Source: Lucinisca nassula
Lineage: Eukaryota; Mollusca; Bivalvia; Lucinida; Lucinidae
DNA: 64,000 nucleotides
Direction: 5' to 3'
Assembly (NCBI GenBank): GCA_963580285.1
Contig: OY757013.1
Coordinates: 129,825,027 to 129,889,026, forward strand
Under the pieces are notes generated by a model. The model was given only the letters and a program-made list of their open reading frames with translations, searched no databases and was not told the origin of the DNA. The stretch's first letter is position 1; each line of letters starts with the position of its first letter. This document shows positions 17,321 through 47,513 of the stretch, piece by piece. A program made the translations under genes and the position numbers.

Positions 17321-19056
17321 GCCACCAAGTTTGCTGTATGTGTTAACGAAGGCTAAGACAAGCTTCCTACGCTATACTGGTTACCAAAACTTCATAAAAG
17401 ACCTTACAAAACACGGTTTATTGCTAATTCTAGCTCTTGCACTACCACTGAACTTTCTAAATTATTAACTTCCTGTCTTACTGCTATTAAAACGCATGTA
17501 ATTAAATATTGTGATAAAGTCTTTGAAAGATCAGGAAGAAATCTGTTTTGGTCTTTAAACATTCGAATGACTGAATAAATTATTTGTCTAAATCGCGACG
17601 GAAGTAAGGGCGAGGATTGTGGCCACGTAAAATCGATTTAAGCCCCCCAGTGGAAATCTTCCACTGACCGTTCCAAGGCGGCTCTTCTGTGGCGATTTAT
17701 TTATGTTGTTGTGTGTTACTTACTGTGTGTATCACTTGTGTCTTTTAATCTTGGATGGCCATATGGCCATTTTGTGGGAAAGTAACTGTCCTTATGACCT
17801 TCCTTTGTTTAGGTTTCCATTATGGTCTGGTCGCTTAATGTTTGTATTTCTTTCCCTTTGGTGTCCTTTATGGGTGGAGTAAGTTAATTGTATCAATTCC
17901 TGATCTTTGTTTTACTTCTACTTTTTAAATAAATTGAAATCCAGACATTTTCGTGCTTCAAGTTTGTCTACTTACGATTTTTACACTCTTTACACTACAC
18001 TTCCTCATAATCTTATAAACGAAAAGCTTAATGATTTAATTGAATGGGCTTTTCACAGAGAAGATTCTCTCTATCTTGCATGTAATGTCAGAAATGCATT
18101 TTTCACTTCTAAAGAGCATAAGAATTATACACTTTGGTAATGTCAGAAAGTGTGTGATGCCCTCACCTTTCTACTTGACAATATTTATATTAGATTCAGT
18201 ACTAAGTTATTTAGACAAATTGTGGGTATTCCGATGGGTACGAATTGCGCACCTCTGGTGGCTGATCTGTTCTTGTATTGTTATGAAAGAGACTTCATGT
18301 TGTCGCTTTCCATTGATAACCAAACTGAAATTATTGAAGCTTTTAGCTCCACTTCTAGATATTTAGATGATTTATTAAATATTGATAATACCTATTTCGA
18401 TGGTTTGATCAGTCAGATTTACCCCCAGAACTTCAGTTAAATAAAGCAAATTCTTCTGATACTGAGGCCCCGTTTTTGGATTTACATCTATCTATTGTAG
18501 ATGGATTTGTTTCGTGCAAAATTTATGATAAACGCGATGACTTTGATTTTGAGATTGTAAATTTTCCTTTTTTGGATGTTGATGTTCCTCGTGCGCCATC
18601 CTATGGCGATTATATTTCGCAATTAATTCGATTTGCTAGAGTGTGTAGTCATGTAACTGACTTCAACACTCGTAATAAATTATTAACGGCTAAACTCCTT
18701 AATCAGGGTTATCGGTACCATAAACTACGCAAAGCCTTTTCAAATTTTATAGACGCCATTCTGATTTAATTTCAAAATTCAATATTGGACTTAAATCTCT
18801 TCTGCAACAAGGTCTATCGGAACCCGAATTTTATGGTGACTTAGTATATAAATTCAGAAAAATATATAACCGCAATGACTTCAGCACCCAATTTCGTAAA
18901 ATCATTCTTCGATATAAAAAGATTGGGTACAACATGGATGTTATACGACAGACTGCATGCATGGTAGTTAACCCAATCACGGTTGGCAACTTTGCTTCCC
19001 TCTTTAATTGCACGCCGGTGGGTCAGGCCTCAGATTCTATGACGGCTCCAACGTAA
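17321..19056 (+). pseudogene. Penelope-like reverse transcriptase, longest copy
   Basis: Encodes a reverse transcriptase of Penelope-like type. Visible blocks in order: LPTLYWLPKLHKRPYK (about 17,360), the TLYTTLPHNLI palm motif (about 17,980), QIVGIPMGTNCAPLVADL (about 18,215), the catalytic RYLDDLL (about 18,357), and FLDLHLS (about 18,475), a typical thumb-side motif. The tail ends DSMTAPT-stop at 19,056. No GIY-YIG endonuclease was seen after the RT. It is dead: stop codons at 17,354 and 18,138, single-base frameshifts near 18,425 and 18,745, and an A fragment inserted at 17,562-17,928 with loss of about 12 bases. The family assignment rests on motif order and is from memory. Confidence 0.8.
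17562..17928 (+). mobile_element. Family A fragment inserted in the RT
   Basis: Begins near GACTGAATAAATTATTTGTC and ends at the common terminus CTTCTACTTTT, splitting the RT reading frame. One Penelope 3' end has inserted into another copy of the element. Confidence 0.75.
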
Positions 19057-21538: not shown

Positions 21539-22534
21539 AACACGGTTTATTGCAAATTCAAGCTCTTGTACCACCACTGAACTCTCCAAATTATTAACTT
21601 CATGTTGAACTGCCATCAAAAAGCATGTGATAAAATATTGCGAAAAGTATTCGAAAGATCAGGTAGAAATCTGTTTTGGTCTATACAAATTTCTAATGAA
21701 GTTTTAAATAAATTGAAATCCAGGCGTTTTCATGCTTCAAGTCTGTCTACTTATGATTTTTCCACCCTTTACACTACACTTCCTCATAATCTTATATTAA
21801 AGAAAAACTTAATGGTTTAATTGAATGGACATTTCATAGGGAAGACTTCCTCTATCTTGCATGTAATGTAAGAAATGCGTTTTTCACTTCTGAAGAGCAT
21901 ACACACTATACTTTATGGTCATGTCAGAAGGTGTCTGAAGCTCTCACCTTTCTACTTGACAATATTACATAAGATTTGGTACTAAGTTATTTAGACAAGT
22001 TGTGGGTATTCCGATGGGTACTAATTGCGCACCACTTGTTGCTGATCTGTTTATGTTTTATAATGAGAGAGACTTCATGGTGTCCCTTTCTGCTGATAAC
22101 CAGTCTGAAATCATTGATATTTTAGCTCCACTTCTGAATATTTGGATTATTTATTAAATATTGATAATACCTATTTCGATGGGTTGATCAGTAAAAATTT
22201 ACCCCCCCCCCCACCCAGAACTTCAGTTAAATAAAGCAAATTCTTCTGATACGGAGGCCCCGTTTTGGGATTTACATCTATCTATCGTGGATGGGTTTGA
22301 TTCTTGCAAAATTTATGATAAACGCGATGATTTTGATTTTGAGATTGTAAGCTTTCCTTGTTTGGATGCTGATGTTCCACGTGCGCCATCCTATGGTGTT
22401 TATATTTCACAATTAATTCGATTTGCCAGAGTGCGTAGTCATGTAATTGACTTCAAACCTCGTAATAAAATGTTAACGTCTAAACTTCTTAATCAGGGTT
22501 ATCGGTACCACAAACTACGCAAAGCCTTTTCAAA
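21539..22534 (+). pseudogene. Penelope-like reverse transcriptase, second copy
   Basis: Covers the same protein from TRFIANSSSC to the GYRYHKLRKAFS block. It retains the stretch missing in the 17-kb copy (about 21,690-21,706). The catalytic YLDD has become YLDY (about 22,139-22,150), so the active site is lost as well as the frame. A C-rich expansion at 22,201-22,214 sits in the YPPEL codons. At 22,535 the element is cut by a G-run and unrelated sequence. No A sequence follows. Confidence 0.75.
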
Positions 22535-23079
22535 GGCGGGGGGGGGGGGGGTGCCCATTTGGGGGTATTCTGGCCTTGTACCAATTTTTTTTTTTTTTTT
22601 TGCAGGTAAACAGCATAACATGTGTACTTTATTATGGCATACCTCTGGTCGCTCGCAAGGTTGTTTTTTTTTCGAGCTACAGGCCTTTAAAAGTGGGTGG
22701 GTTAATTTAGCATGACACTGTAGGGTATTTTGAAACTTAACTTTAGTTATTACCTGTGTGCTCTTTCACTGTAATTTGTTCTTAGGTAGACTGAAGGATG
22801 TCTGAAGATGTTTAGAAACATTTTTCAAAACAATATTGCAACTTTGGAAGATAAAATGCTTTTTCCAAATGCTACAATATTTTTACTTATTTTTTAACCT
22901 TAATCATTAAAAGCTTTGAAGTTTTTTGGTAATTTGGGAGGAAACCAATGATGATTCTTGGATAACAGTATCATTTTTAATCCCCCGTCGTGAAGCGGTG
23001 CGGAGATTATAGGAATGGCCTTCGTCTGTCCGTCCGGGCCAGTCCGTCCGTCTGTCTGTCCGTAACACTTTCTTGTCCT
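22535..23079. other. Homopolymer junction and unrecognised sequence
   Basis: G-run at about 22,538-22,551 and T-run at about 22,586-22,601. From about 22,982 the CCGTCGTGAAGCGG...GTCCGTCCGTCTGTCTGTCC leader of the following minisatellite begins. Confidence 0.5.
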
Positions 23080-37501: not shown

Positions 37502-37697
37502 CTGTTTGTTTGTTTGATGTGAGGTTTAACGTCCCCGTCGATACTGTATAGGTCATTTTTGAGACGTTGCTACCAATTCTGTGGGACTTTTACCCGACGC
37601 TGAGATGAAATGACATCTCAAGCTCTGTCGCCCAATGAAACCGATAGGGTTCATAAGCATGACCGGTCCGGCTCGCACCGCTTTGCCTGGACAGGCT
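37502..37697 (-). mobile_element. Family C, truncated at the ribozyme repeat
   Basis: Tail complement GTTTGTTTGATGTGAGG at the left. It stops inside TTTGCCTGGACAGGCT, exactly where the hammerhead-bearing repeat starts. Confidence 0.7.
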
Positions 37698-37698
37698 A

Positions 37699-38107
37699 CA
37701 TATTTTCTAGTTCTGTGCTGTATTCCTTGCTTCCAAAGGATAACCCTTTTATAGAACATAAATAACGTCACTACAGCTGGTGTTTGGGAATGTTAGGCGG
37801 CCGTAAAAAGTCTCCCTGCCCTACATCATAGTGTAGTTTATATTTTCTTGTCCTTTGGGATCATTGATTCCATTCTGGAATTTTGAAAATATTTGAGGGT
37901 CACTGATGAGGCCTAATTGGCCGAAACTAGCTAGTCTGGCCCAGAAATAAAAATGTACACTTCATATTTTCTAATTCTGTGGTGTATTCCTTGCTTCCAA
38001 AGGATAACCCTTGTATAGAACATATTTAACGTCACTACAGCTGGTGTCTGGGAATGTGTGGCGGCCGTAAAAAGTCTCCCTGTCCTACACCATAGTGTAG
38101 TTTATAT
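37699..38107 (+). mobile_element. Hammerhead-bearing tandem repeat (retrozyme-like), 1.5 units
   Basis: Unit of 264 bp (CATATTTTCTAGTTCTG at 37,699, repeated at 37,963). Unit order: TCCTTGCTTCCAAAGGATAA, ACGTCACTACAGCTGG, GGCGGCCGTAAAAAGTCTCC, CATAGTGTAGTTTATA, TTCTTGTCCTTTGGG, then the ribozyme. The second unit stops at TAGTTTATAT before its ribozyme. No ORF. Tandem units each delimited by a hammerhead are the hallmark of retrozymes; assignment is inference from structure. Confidence 0.8.
37897..37942 (+). ncRNA. Type I hammerhead ribozyme
   Basis: All catalytic positions are present: CTGATGA (37,903-37,909) and GAAA (37,923-37,926). Stem I is GGGTCA/TGGCCC (6 bp, one G.U). Stem II is GGCC-TAATT-GGCC (4 bp). 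Stem III is ACTA-GC-TAGT (4 bp with a 2-nt loop), followed by C at 37,936, so cleavage is expected between 37,936 and 37,937. The tiny stem III matches the small hammerheads known from Penelope-like elements and retrozymes, which often act better as dimers. Confidence 0.9.
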
Positions 38108-42642: not shown

Positions 42643-42943
42643 CATTACGACAACACGCCTATACAAATACATCGTAAACTTTACCGCCTCCCCCCCCCCC
42701 CCCAAAAAAAAAAGCGAAATGTTAAGGGATGAAACATTGTGATATTTTTCCTATTTCTGCTCCAAATATAGACTGTGGGAACTCGTTAGAACCGCCTCAT
42801 TGAGGCGGTTCTAACGAGTTCCCACAATCTATATTTTAGAGCAGAAATAAAAAAAAATAAGGTATACCGCTGTAAACCCCAGTTTTACTATATAAAAGTG
42901 GGGTTCAAGGGGGTCAAAATTATATAGGCATGTTTGCGTGATG
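42643..42943 (+). mobile_element. M1 element with C-run
   Basis: CATTACGACAACACGCCTAT to AGGCATGTTTGCGTGATG. A C-run then A-run expands the left arm; hairpin GCCTCATTGAGGC perfect. Confidence 0.85.
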
Positions 42944-43018
42944 TGACTTTTGAGTTCATATAAAAATAGTTCAATAGCTCCAGATACATGTATCTATATT
43001 TGATTTCATCTTTAAAAG

Positions 43019-43203
43019 GTTTGTATTTTCTTGTCCTTTGGGGACATTGATCCCATTGTGAGTTATGAAAATACTTAAGGGCCACTGATGAAGCCTATTT
43101 GGCCGAAACTAGCTAGTCTGGCCAGGATTTACTCTTACACTCCATACTGTTCAGTTCTGTGACGTATTCTTTGCTTGTAAAGGATAACCCTTTTATAGAA
43201 CAT
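43019..43203 (+). mobile_element. Hammerhead-bearing repeat, partial and diverged
   Basis: Covers TTTGTATTTTCTTGTCC to AACCCTTTTATAGAACATAT, i.e. the unit from just before the ribozyme through the following AGGATAACCC block. It starts at the position where the 38,107 copy stops, as expected of fragments of a circular or multimeric template. Confidence 0.75.
43079..43124 (+). ncRNA. Hammerhead ribozyme, diverged
   Basis: CTGATGA (43,085-43,091), GAAA and the ACTA-GC-TAGT-C stem III are kept. Stem I GGCCA/TGGCC is all Watson-Crick, replacing the G.U of the other copies by C-G. Stem II has an A/C mismatch at its first pair, which should weaken it. Confidence 0.8.
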
Positions 43204-43404
43204 ATCTGTTGTAAATACTCATTAGTATGATCTTAATGAGATGATTCAAATGAGTACACACAGCAGAATCGCCAAGGCGTTAAAATAGTACACATAGCGT
43301 ACCCTATTTTTATTATTATTATTATTATAGAACATCGTAAACTTTGGGTTTGCTTAACTCTTTCTCATTATGCCCCTTTACATGACTCTATATTTAAACC
43401 TTAG

Positions 43405-45796: not shown

Positions 45797-46062
45797 CATC
45801 ACGAAAACACGCCTATAAGATTTTGACCCCTTAGAACCCCACTTTTATATAGAAAAACAGGGGTTTAGAGGGGTATACATTATTTTCCTTATTTCTGCTC
45901 AAAAACATAGATTGTGGGTACTCGTTAGAACCGTTCTAACGAGTACCCACAATCTATGTTTTGAGCAGAAATTTGAAAAATGTCAAGATTTTTTTCTGAA
46001 AAATTTCATTTTTTTGTGGTAAAATTTTACCAATATATTTGAATAGGCGTGTTTTCGTAATG
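45797..46062 (-). mobile_element. M1 element, short perfect hairpin
   Basis: CATCACGAAAACACGCCTAT to ATAGGCGTGTTTTCGTAATG. The hairpin is loopless: CTCGTTAGAACC directly followed by GTTCTAACGAG, so the GCCTC/GAGGC part is gone but the palindrome stays exact. Confidence 0.85.
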
Positions 46063-46224
46063 GGTGTTTTTTCTAATATGTCCTCGCAGCAGGAATAAGA
46101 TAAAAAAAGCATATATCCTTGTATATCCTTTTTATCTGCTTACAAGGGTATTTTTCAAATGGTCGTGTTTAGGTTATGTGAGAACCGTTATTATATAACC
46201 TTTGAGATGACCACTAGTATAAGA

Positions 46225-46470
46225 CAATGGTTTGACATAGTGCATTCTTTCGAATCTCAAAAAAGTATGTTTCTGATGAAACATTGCTATATTTTGTTCA
46301 TATTTCAGCTACAAACATAGATTGTACATCGCAGTTGCGCGTAAGAACCGCCTAAAACAGAAATGAGAAAAATAATGTATATCCTTGTAAACCCGAGTTT
46401 TCTCTGAATAAATTGGGGGGGGGGGGGGGTTCAGGGTGGTTATTGCAGGGGCTTGTTAACATGACCATCA
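46225..46470 (+). mobile_element. M2 element, decayed
   Basis: GACATAGTGCATTCTTTCG and TTCTGATGAAACATTGC on the left, GGGCTTGTTAACATGACC on the right; G-run at 46,417-46,429; hairpin mostly lost. Confidence 0.65.
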
Positions 46471-46585
46471 CATAAACAATCTTATATGATTTCGACTCAT
46501 TTAAATATGTTCAATAAAAGGGTTATCCTTTGGAAGCAAGGAGTACACCTCAGAACTGAAAAAATATGGAGCATACATGTTTTCT

Positions 46586-46631
46586 GGGCCAGACTAGCTA
46601 GTTTCGGCCAATTAGGCCTCATCAGTGACCC
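46586..46631 (-). ncRNA. Type I hammerhead ribozyme
   Basis: Minus strand: TCATCAG complement at 46,619-46,625 and GTTTC complement at 46,601-46,605. The same stems as the 37,897 copy: GGGTCA/TGGCCC, GGCC/GGCC, ACTA-GC-TAGT. Predicted cleavage between the complements of 46,592 and 46,591. Confidence 0.9.
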
Positions 46632-46848
46632 TCAGATATTTTCAAAATTCCACAATGGAATAAATGATCCCAAAGGACAAGAAAATAAAATCTACACTAT
46701 GATGTAGGGCAGGGAGACGTTTTACCGCCGCCACACATTCCCACACACCAGCTGTAGTGAAGTTAAATATGTTCTATAAAAGGGTTATCCTTTGGAAGTA
46801 AGGAGTACACCACAGAACTGAAAAAAATATGGAGCGTACATGTTTTCT

Positions 46849-46894
46849 GGGCCAGACTAGCTAGTTTCGGCCAATTTGGCCTCATCAGTGACCC
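46849..46894 (-). ncRNA. Type I hammerhead ribozyme
   Basis: Second ribozyme of the dimer, identical core and stems to the first; the stem II loop differs by one base (AAATT versus TAATT on the transcribed strand). Confidence 0.9.
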
Positions 46895-46982
46895 TCAGAT
46901 ATTTTCAAAATTCCACAATGGAATCAATGATCCCAAAGGACAAGAAAATATAATCTACACTATGATGTAGGACACTATGGTG

Positions 46983-47235
46983 TAACCCCACTTTTATACA
47001 GTAAAACTGGAGTTTACAGGGGTACATGTATTCATTATTTTTCTTATTTCTGCTCAAAAACGTAGAATGGGAGTACCAGTTAAAACCGCCTCGCCTCGCT
47101 GAGGCGGATCTAACGAGCACACACAATTTATAATTTGAGCAGAAATATGAAAAACATCAGAATGTTGTTTCTGAAAATTTTCATTTTTGGGTGGGGAAAT
47201 TATCAATATATTTGAATAGGCTTGTTTTCATAACG
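46983..47235 (-). mobile_element. M1 element, left end replaced by the ribozyme repeat
   Basis: Starts at AACCCCACTTTTATACAG, losing the left tip; right tip AGGCTTGTTTTCATAACG. The hairpin has an extra GCCTC. Confidence 0.8.
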
Positions 47236-47244
47236 GTTAGGTTT

Positions 47245-47513
47245 CATCACTTGAACAAGTTCGTGAAATGAAGACCCCCTAAACCCCACTTAATATAGAA
47301 AAAACTGGGGTTCACGGGGTATACATTATTTTTTCTTATTTCTGCTCCAAGACAAAGGTCGTGGGTACTCGTTAGAACCGCCTCAATGAGGCGGTTTTAA
47401 CGAGCACACACAACCTATGTTTTGAGCGTCTATAGGACAAATATCAAGGATTTTCGCCGGAAAAGTAGCCACTTTGGAGGTGTGAAAAATGTACTTATGT
47501 CATACGGGTGAGT
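47245..47513 (-). mobile_element. M2 element, right tip eroded
   Basis: CATCACTTGAACAAGTTCGT at the left, hairpin GCCTCAATGAGGC perfect, right side ends GGTGAGTACAG instead of GAGTTATCG. Confidence 0.8.

Follow-up and report, generated by a model that had tools for sequence, protein, structure and literature searches.

A family of non-LTR retrozymes in Lucinisca nassula whose arrays share a 3' end downstream of the hammerhead cut

Metazoan non-LTR retrozymes, described in Mytilus galloprovincialis, Acropora millepora and axolotl, are small non-coding tandem repeats with type I hammerhead ribozymes, units of 150–450 bp (350–390 bp in the mussel), a GC content below 50%, many genomic copies and target duplications of more than 4 bp (Cervera and de la Pena, 2020, PMC7229834). 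Their copying route and enzyme are not settled in the consulted sections of that paper, which regard Penelope-like elements (PLEs) as strong candidates for the mobiliser, without evidence from junctions, and describe neither a fixed 3' end nor one-monomer arrays, nor in those of a later review, according to which no conserved motif has revealed the autonomous partner (PMC7761336). Junction analyses of this kind were not found for retrozymes in the literature searched, as far as its consulted parts go. The LTR retrozymes of plants likewise contain tandem hammerheads, with circular RNA proposed as template, but are characterised by type III hammerheads, LTRs, a primer site and 4-bp target duplications (PMC7229834; PMC7761336).

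For PLEs, the start of reverse transcription has been located in PAc, an element from Anolis, whose RNA is cut 26 nt into the ORF and in which the reverse transcriptase (RT) starts 111–118 nt into the ORF (Frangieh 2024, PMC11167929). Subtraction of these published figures, made in the present analysis, places the start 85–92 nt past the cut. Starts occur at two adjacent sites in PAc, which requires 172 nt from the beginning of the ORF, reaching 146 nt past the cut, and its start site was reported as not matching the cleaved DNA (PMC11167929).

The window analysed here, a stretch of 64,000 nt from the 2.93-Gb host genome, contains three copies of an element that belongs to the known class of metazoan non-LTR retrozymes and constitutes a new family in it. 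Two of them (37695–38107 and 43021–43205) were absent from the initial annotation, which had described the third. In the following list, phases are counted from the first base after the predicted cut (phase 1) to the cut itself (phase 263).

37695..38107, plus strand: copy A, 1.57 units, with one intact hammerhead (CTGATGA at 37903) and an atypical 3' end at phase 170
43021..43205, plus strand: copy C, 0.71 unit, 82% identical, with CTGATGA at 43085 and its 3' end at phase 88
46501..46974, minus strand: retrozyme insertion, 1.81 units of 263 nt, 5' end at 46974 (phase 144) and 3' end at 46501 (phase 92)
46592..46854, minus strand: complete 263-nt unit from cut site to cut site, the predicted excised monomer
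46849..46894, minus strand: type I hammerhead of the 5' unit, predicted cut 46855/46854 (full descriptor; relaxed Rfam search, 25.7 bits, below gathering)
46586..46631, minus strand: type I hammerhead of the 3' unit, predicted cut 46592/46591 (full descriptor)
46707..46763, minus strand: predicted hairpin domain, phases 92–148, directly beyond the fixed 3' end (circular fold of the majority unit)

The minus-strand insertion (474 bp) carries two complete type I hammerheads 263 nt apart and has direct repeats of 153 nt (97% identity, spacing 263) and 64 nt (95%, spacing 262). Each hammerhead has CTGATGA, GAAAC, a GTC cut triplet, a stem I of 6 bp and a stem II of 4–5 bp, and stem III, as read from the sequence, is short and palindromic in both. 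All elements of the two head-to-tail units claimed in the initial annotation (repeats, motifs and stems) were thus recovered, and the cut that it had placed at the complement of 46,591 coincides with the one predicted here. The full hammerhead descriptor found three sites in the window, vs a mean of 0.007 in 150 first-order Markov samples; the hammerhead of copy C, in which a stem II pair is broken (judged by eye), was missed by it. Comparison with Rfam, which the same annotation had proposed as a check, gave weaker evidence: under relaxed limits Hammerhead_1 matched at 46849–46894 only (25.7 bits, E 8.6e-4, gathering 34), and over the whole window there was no match at gathering thresholds. 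Under relaxed limits the other hammerhead (46586–46631) gave RF00008 and RF03152, far under gathering, and RF00163 was not listed. Single-molecule folds of the ribozyme windows were unremarkable (z -1.03 and -1.16), and the circular fold of the majority unit was moderately stable only (z -2.2; 4 of 100 shuffles equally good). No hammerhead pattern was found in scans of viral and prokaryotic contigs, and a search of a phage collection returned chance-level matches only (best E 6).

The unit, with a GC content of 0.411 and a longest open frame of 67 codons when in tandem, is non-coding. Both its GC content and its length of 263 nt fit the figures for metazoan retrozymes, the length being below that of the mussel repeat, and the type I hammerhead sets it apart from the plant LTR retrozymes. 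Whereas PLEs encode RT and GIY-YIG, the retrozyme is non-coding, has a full type I hammerhead and forms multi-lap arrays of a tiny unit.

Two genome searches with queries of different phase yielded 67 matches (best 40 scored of 6177 first-look candidates) and 91 matches (best 40 scored of 5569). Copies are therefore numerous, as in other metazoan retrozymes, with thousands of first-look candidates, and nearly all of those sampled are tandem, so that the outcome named as adverse in the initial annotation, units elsewhere that are never tandem, does not hold. With type I hammerheads and many tandem copies in the genome, its view of a retrozyme-like tandem element stands; the fixed 3' end, the one-monomer arrays and the PLE link are additions to it. 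The sample comprised 64 non-redundant loci, the three window copies included, with copy lengths of 0.71–8.27 units; left out were overlapping fetches (L001–L008, L048, L054, L055, L058, L068, L072) and presumed segmental duplicates with the same flanks as a kept locus (L018; L052 with L054). Single-lap copies are under-sampled, because both samples were chosen by similarity to multi-unit queries.

In 56 of the 64 loci, the 3' end lies at phase 84–95, i.e., 84–95 nt downstream of the cut (mode 91), vs about 3 loci expected by chance for a 12-nt stretch (binomial p 2.5e-66, the stretch having been chosen post hoc). Other 3' ends were found in L015 (phase 62), L016 (28), L057 (194), L066 (79), L074 (83), L076 (102) and copy A (170), and L036, whose 3' end was cut off by the fetched stretch, is also counted outside the 56; in L057 and L074 a further piece is present, ending at phases 92 and 91, respectively. 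The same 3' end was obtained with the second query, which itself ended at phase 170, so the choice of query does not explain the site: of the rows that begin within the first 7 query bases, 25 break off before the end of the query, 21 of them at query positions 330–337 (about phase 90) and the remaining four at 318, 322, 326 and 345. The distance from the cut is similar to that of the internal start of PAc, an element with which the retrozyme also shares partial tandems (PMC11167929).

The 5' ends, on the other hand, are scattered. An excess at phases 138–156 (16 of 64 loci, p 9e-6), where the 3' arm of the predicted hairpin is located, was seen in 14 of 41 loci of the first sample plus window copies and in 2 of 23, near chance, in the second, and is given little weight since it was not repeated there. 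Only one of the 64 loci (L029) has its 5' end within 2 nt of the cut, the position expected for run-off from a cut linear RNA.

Units resemble each other more inside arrays than between them. Divergence in the first sample was 2.36% within arrays (151 pairs) vs 3.96% between (6854 pairs), 37 of 39 arrays being closer inside, and in the second sample 5.12% (97 pairs) vs 6.61% (2388 pairs), with 21 of 22 closer inside and L067 as the exception. Fourteen of the 39 arrays were near-identical inside (0.0–1.2%) while lying 2.6–4.3% from others. Allele concordance, computed on the first sample only, was best at phase 37, uniform in 37 of 39 arrays and concordant in 161 of 165 pairs (shuffles: mean 84, maximum 108); at phases 16, 20 and 50, 157/164, 152/168 and 149/172 pairs were concordant, each above all 1000 shuffles. 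Since alleles are uniform inside arrays while arrays differ, each array would derive from one monomer, and such descent fits what reverse transcription round a single circle predicts, although unit homogenisation at the DNA level may account for the likeness in part. We consider it decidedly unlikely that a linear multimeric transcript of the array is instead reverse-transcribed from an internal or 3' site, without a circle. Arrays are long enough for such a template, and the in vitro reaction of PAc ran on unprocessed linear RNA, with no need of the hammerhead (PMC11167929). Changes private to one unit should in that case pass on by position, however, whereas position within the array gives little register (same-position vs different-position divergence of 3.90 vs 3.98%, and 6.40 vs 6.67% in the second sample). 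Neither the 14 near-identical arrays nor the largely uniform alleles inside arrays are predicted by a linear template. As a separate observation on the 39 arrays, phases 11–50, which lie between the cut and the 3' end, deviate from the majority at 4–7%, the rest of the unit at about 1–3%, as if this part were freer to vary.

Homologous junction-spanning sequence without the insertion was found for 23 loci. Among eight clean empty-site cases, two are blunt, four have lost 1–4 nt of target and two have duplicated it (4 nt in L071, 13 nt in L047). A single 13-nt duplication (13–17 nt), seen against the empty site, surrounds the whole 6.8-unit array of L047, and L029 shows a repeat of about 63 nt plus 98 nt of extra sequence on the 5' side. 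In these two clearest cases the duplications would fit the length of more than 4 bp given for metazoan retrozymes (PMC7229834), whereas L071 overlaps its empty site by 4 nt and most rows have none. Indeed, a near-end target duplication is absent in most of 41 rows (L047 is clear, L021 borderline and offset), which was counted against the explanation preferred below. At the 3' junction, 1–4 nt match the target in 8 of 8 loci, with a mean of 2.1 vs 0.47 for random flanks and 0.96 for ends paired with the targets of other loci. In PAc, by contrast, the start site is reported not to match the cleaved DNA (PMC11167929), a difference that speaks against the explanation preferred below.

These junctions also bear on the origin of the arrays as ordinary satellite DNA spread by unequal crossing-over, the hammerhead being a relic, which we regard as highly improbable. 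The tandem arrangement agrees with it, as does the discovery of the first animal hammerhead in satellite DNA (PMC7229834). However, satellite spread does not account for dispersed insertions with a fixed 3' end, for the insertion-free homologous sites or for one duplicated target site around 6.8 units. The diverged arrays L041 and L045 differ more inside than between arrays, so no continuing homogenisation takes place there, and the ribozyme is hardly a relic, with the core intact in 110 of 123 units and the 13 bases spanning the cut in their exact common form in 107 of 124.

Target-primed reverse transcription generally leaves a fixed 3' end, 5' truncation and microhomology at the junction. 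In the retrozyme these features are thus compatible with a circular template copied by an RT of LINE type, and the long target duplications of L047 and L029 would suit such an enzyme; nevertheless, we hold this unlikely, given that most insertions lack target duplications and that the start is internal, near the PLE distance from the hammerhead cut. PLE insertions without target duplication and with microhomology have been described, along with others carrying 9–10 bp (PMC3846280).

The host genome contains PLEs of its own. A GIY-YIG search gave 138 matches (best 150 scored of 746 candidates), and one family (L086, L092, L094, L116) combines RVT_1 and GIY-YIG in one ORF (34.2 and 29.9 bits in L116) with a minimal hammerhead of 7-bp stem I and palindromic stem III, which Rfam did not list in L086. 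L116 unites the PLE features of RT and GIY-YIG in one ORF, hammerhead and tandem copies, and copies about 3.7 kb apart in tandem occur at six places (best 40 scored of 276 candidates). Of 19 computed 3' ends, 13 lie 56 nt beyond the hammerhead cut, in front of a TA repeat, and four at 83–98 nt, and two copies continue into the next unit; L113–L115, read by eye, end at the first site. Two adjacent end sites are therefore common to this family and PAc (PMC11167929), and were not seen for the retrozyme. The best candidate for the mobiliser is PLE machinery: copies of PLEs themselves end at fixed sites, at comparable distances beyond the hammerhead cut, and geometry, junctions and co-occurrence favour it. 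Counted against the link is the main end site of the genome's PLE, at 56 nt and not near 91. Local alignment of the retrozyme with the leader of one PLE family detected no significant shared sequence (score 29 vs a shuffle mean of 23.9, p 0.146). In 15 other GIY-YIG-flanking stretches (L078–L085, L087–L091, L093, L095), no convincing hammerhead was found in the 13 covered by a loose motif search or the 10 covered by a stricter stem scan (L078–L082 lie outside the latter); L081 and L088 contain the motif strings without stem I in the loose search.

Some details of the PLE ends may be added. Among copies L096–L115, TTTTTT precedes GTATATA in 9 of 14 that end at the first site, and the two run-on copies carry TTTT; match lengths hint at the same contrast for tandem-internal copies. 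The TA repeats that follow PLE ends vary widely in length, as though they arose when reverse transcription began.

As far as can be read from sequence, then, the family consists of tandem type I hammerhead units with a fixed 3' end about 91 nt past the predicted cut, variable 5' ends and arrays each apparently made from one monomer, and these data support a circle as the putative template and an internal start. We consider it probable that the element is a non-autonomous, non-coding non-LTR retrozyme copied by RT from a fixed internal site of a circular RNA, with PLE machinery as the best candidate for the copying. The array transcript would be cut by its hammerheads into monomers, which a host ligase would close into circles; RT would start inside the circle at about phase 91, primed by a nicked target matching the last few nucleotides, would run for up to about eight laps and would come off at varying positions, perhaps often when it reached the hairpin at phases 92–148 once more. 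From that start a linear cut monomer would give only about 91 nt of cDNA, so that closure of the circle lets the whole unit be copied, and the role of the ribozyme may accordingly be to close the template for an internal start.

A broader reading is more tentative, and we put it slightly short of an even chance: Penelope-type RTs would copy circular RNA by rolling round the circle in target-primed reverse transcription that begins at a fixed internal site, the hammerhead of retrozymes and PLEs would exist to make the circle, and the hairpin past the start would be both the binding site of the enzyme and a place where laps end. The 5'-end hotspot that failed to recur in the second sample weighs this down somewhat. 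On this reading, copying from an internal start would break off after some tens of nucleotides unless the template were circular. The fixed start, at nearly the PLE distance from the cut, and the one-monomer arrays make it directly testable how, and by whose enzyme, animal retrozymes return to DNA, and they hint at a reason for the retention of a self-cutting ribozyme in both PLEs and retrozymes.

Several features of the surroundings are of separate interest. Two stretches of the window, 18389–19056 and 22188–22715 (plus strand), hold ORF fragments in which the end of a Penelope-type protein may be recognised. For the first, at least 8000 protein relatives were found, several with a precomputed PF26215 label, and the RT-like ORFs of the window, in three pieces, gave no Pfam match over the cut-off and one weak match below it. 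Repeats of one family, their halves inverted and matching perfectly or nearly so, lie around the element (45835–47424) and at 42700–42960, and the same family is a target of retrozyme insertion elsewhere (L065, L027). Three further retrozyme copies (L020, L042, L046) sit at nearly one place of another repeat (..TTTTACATA / TATAGGG..).
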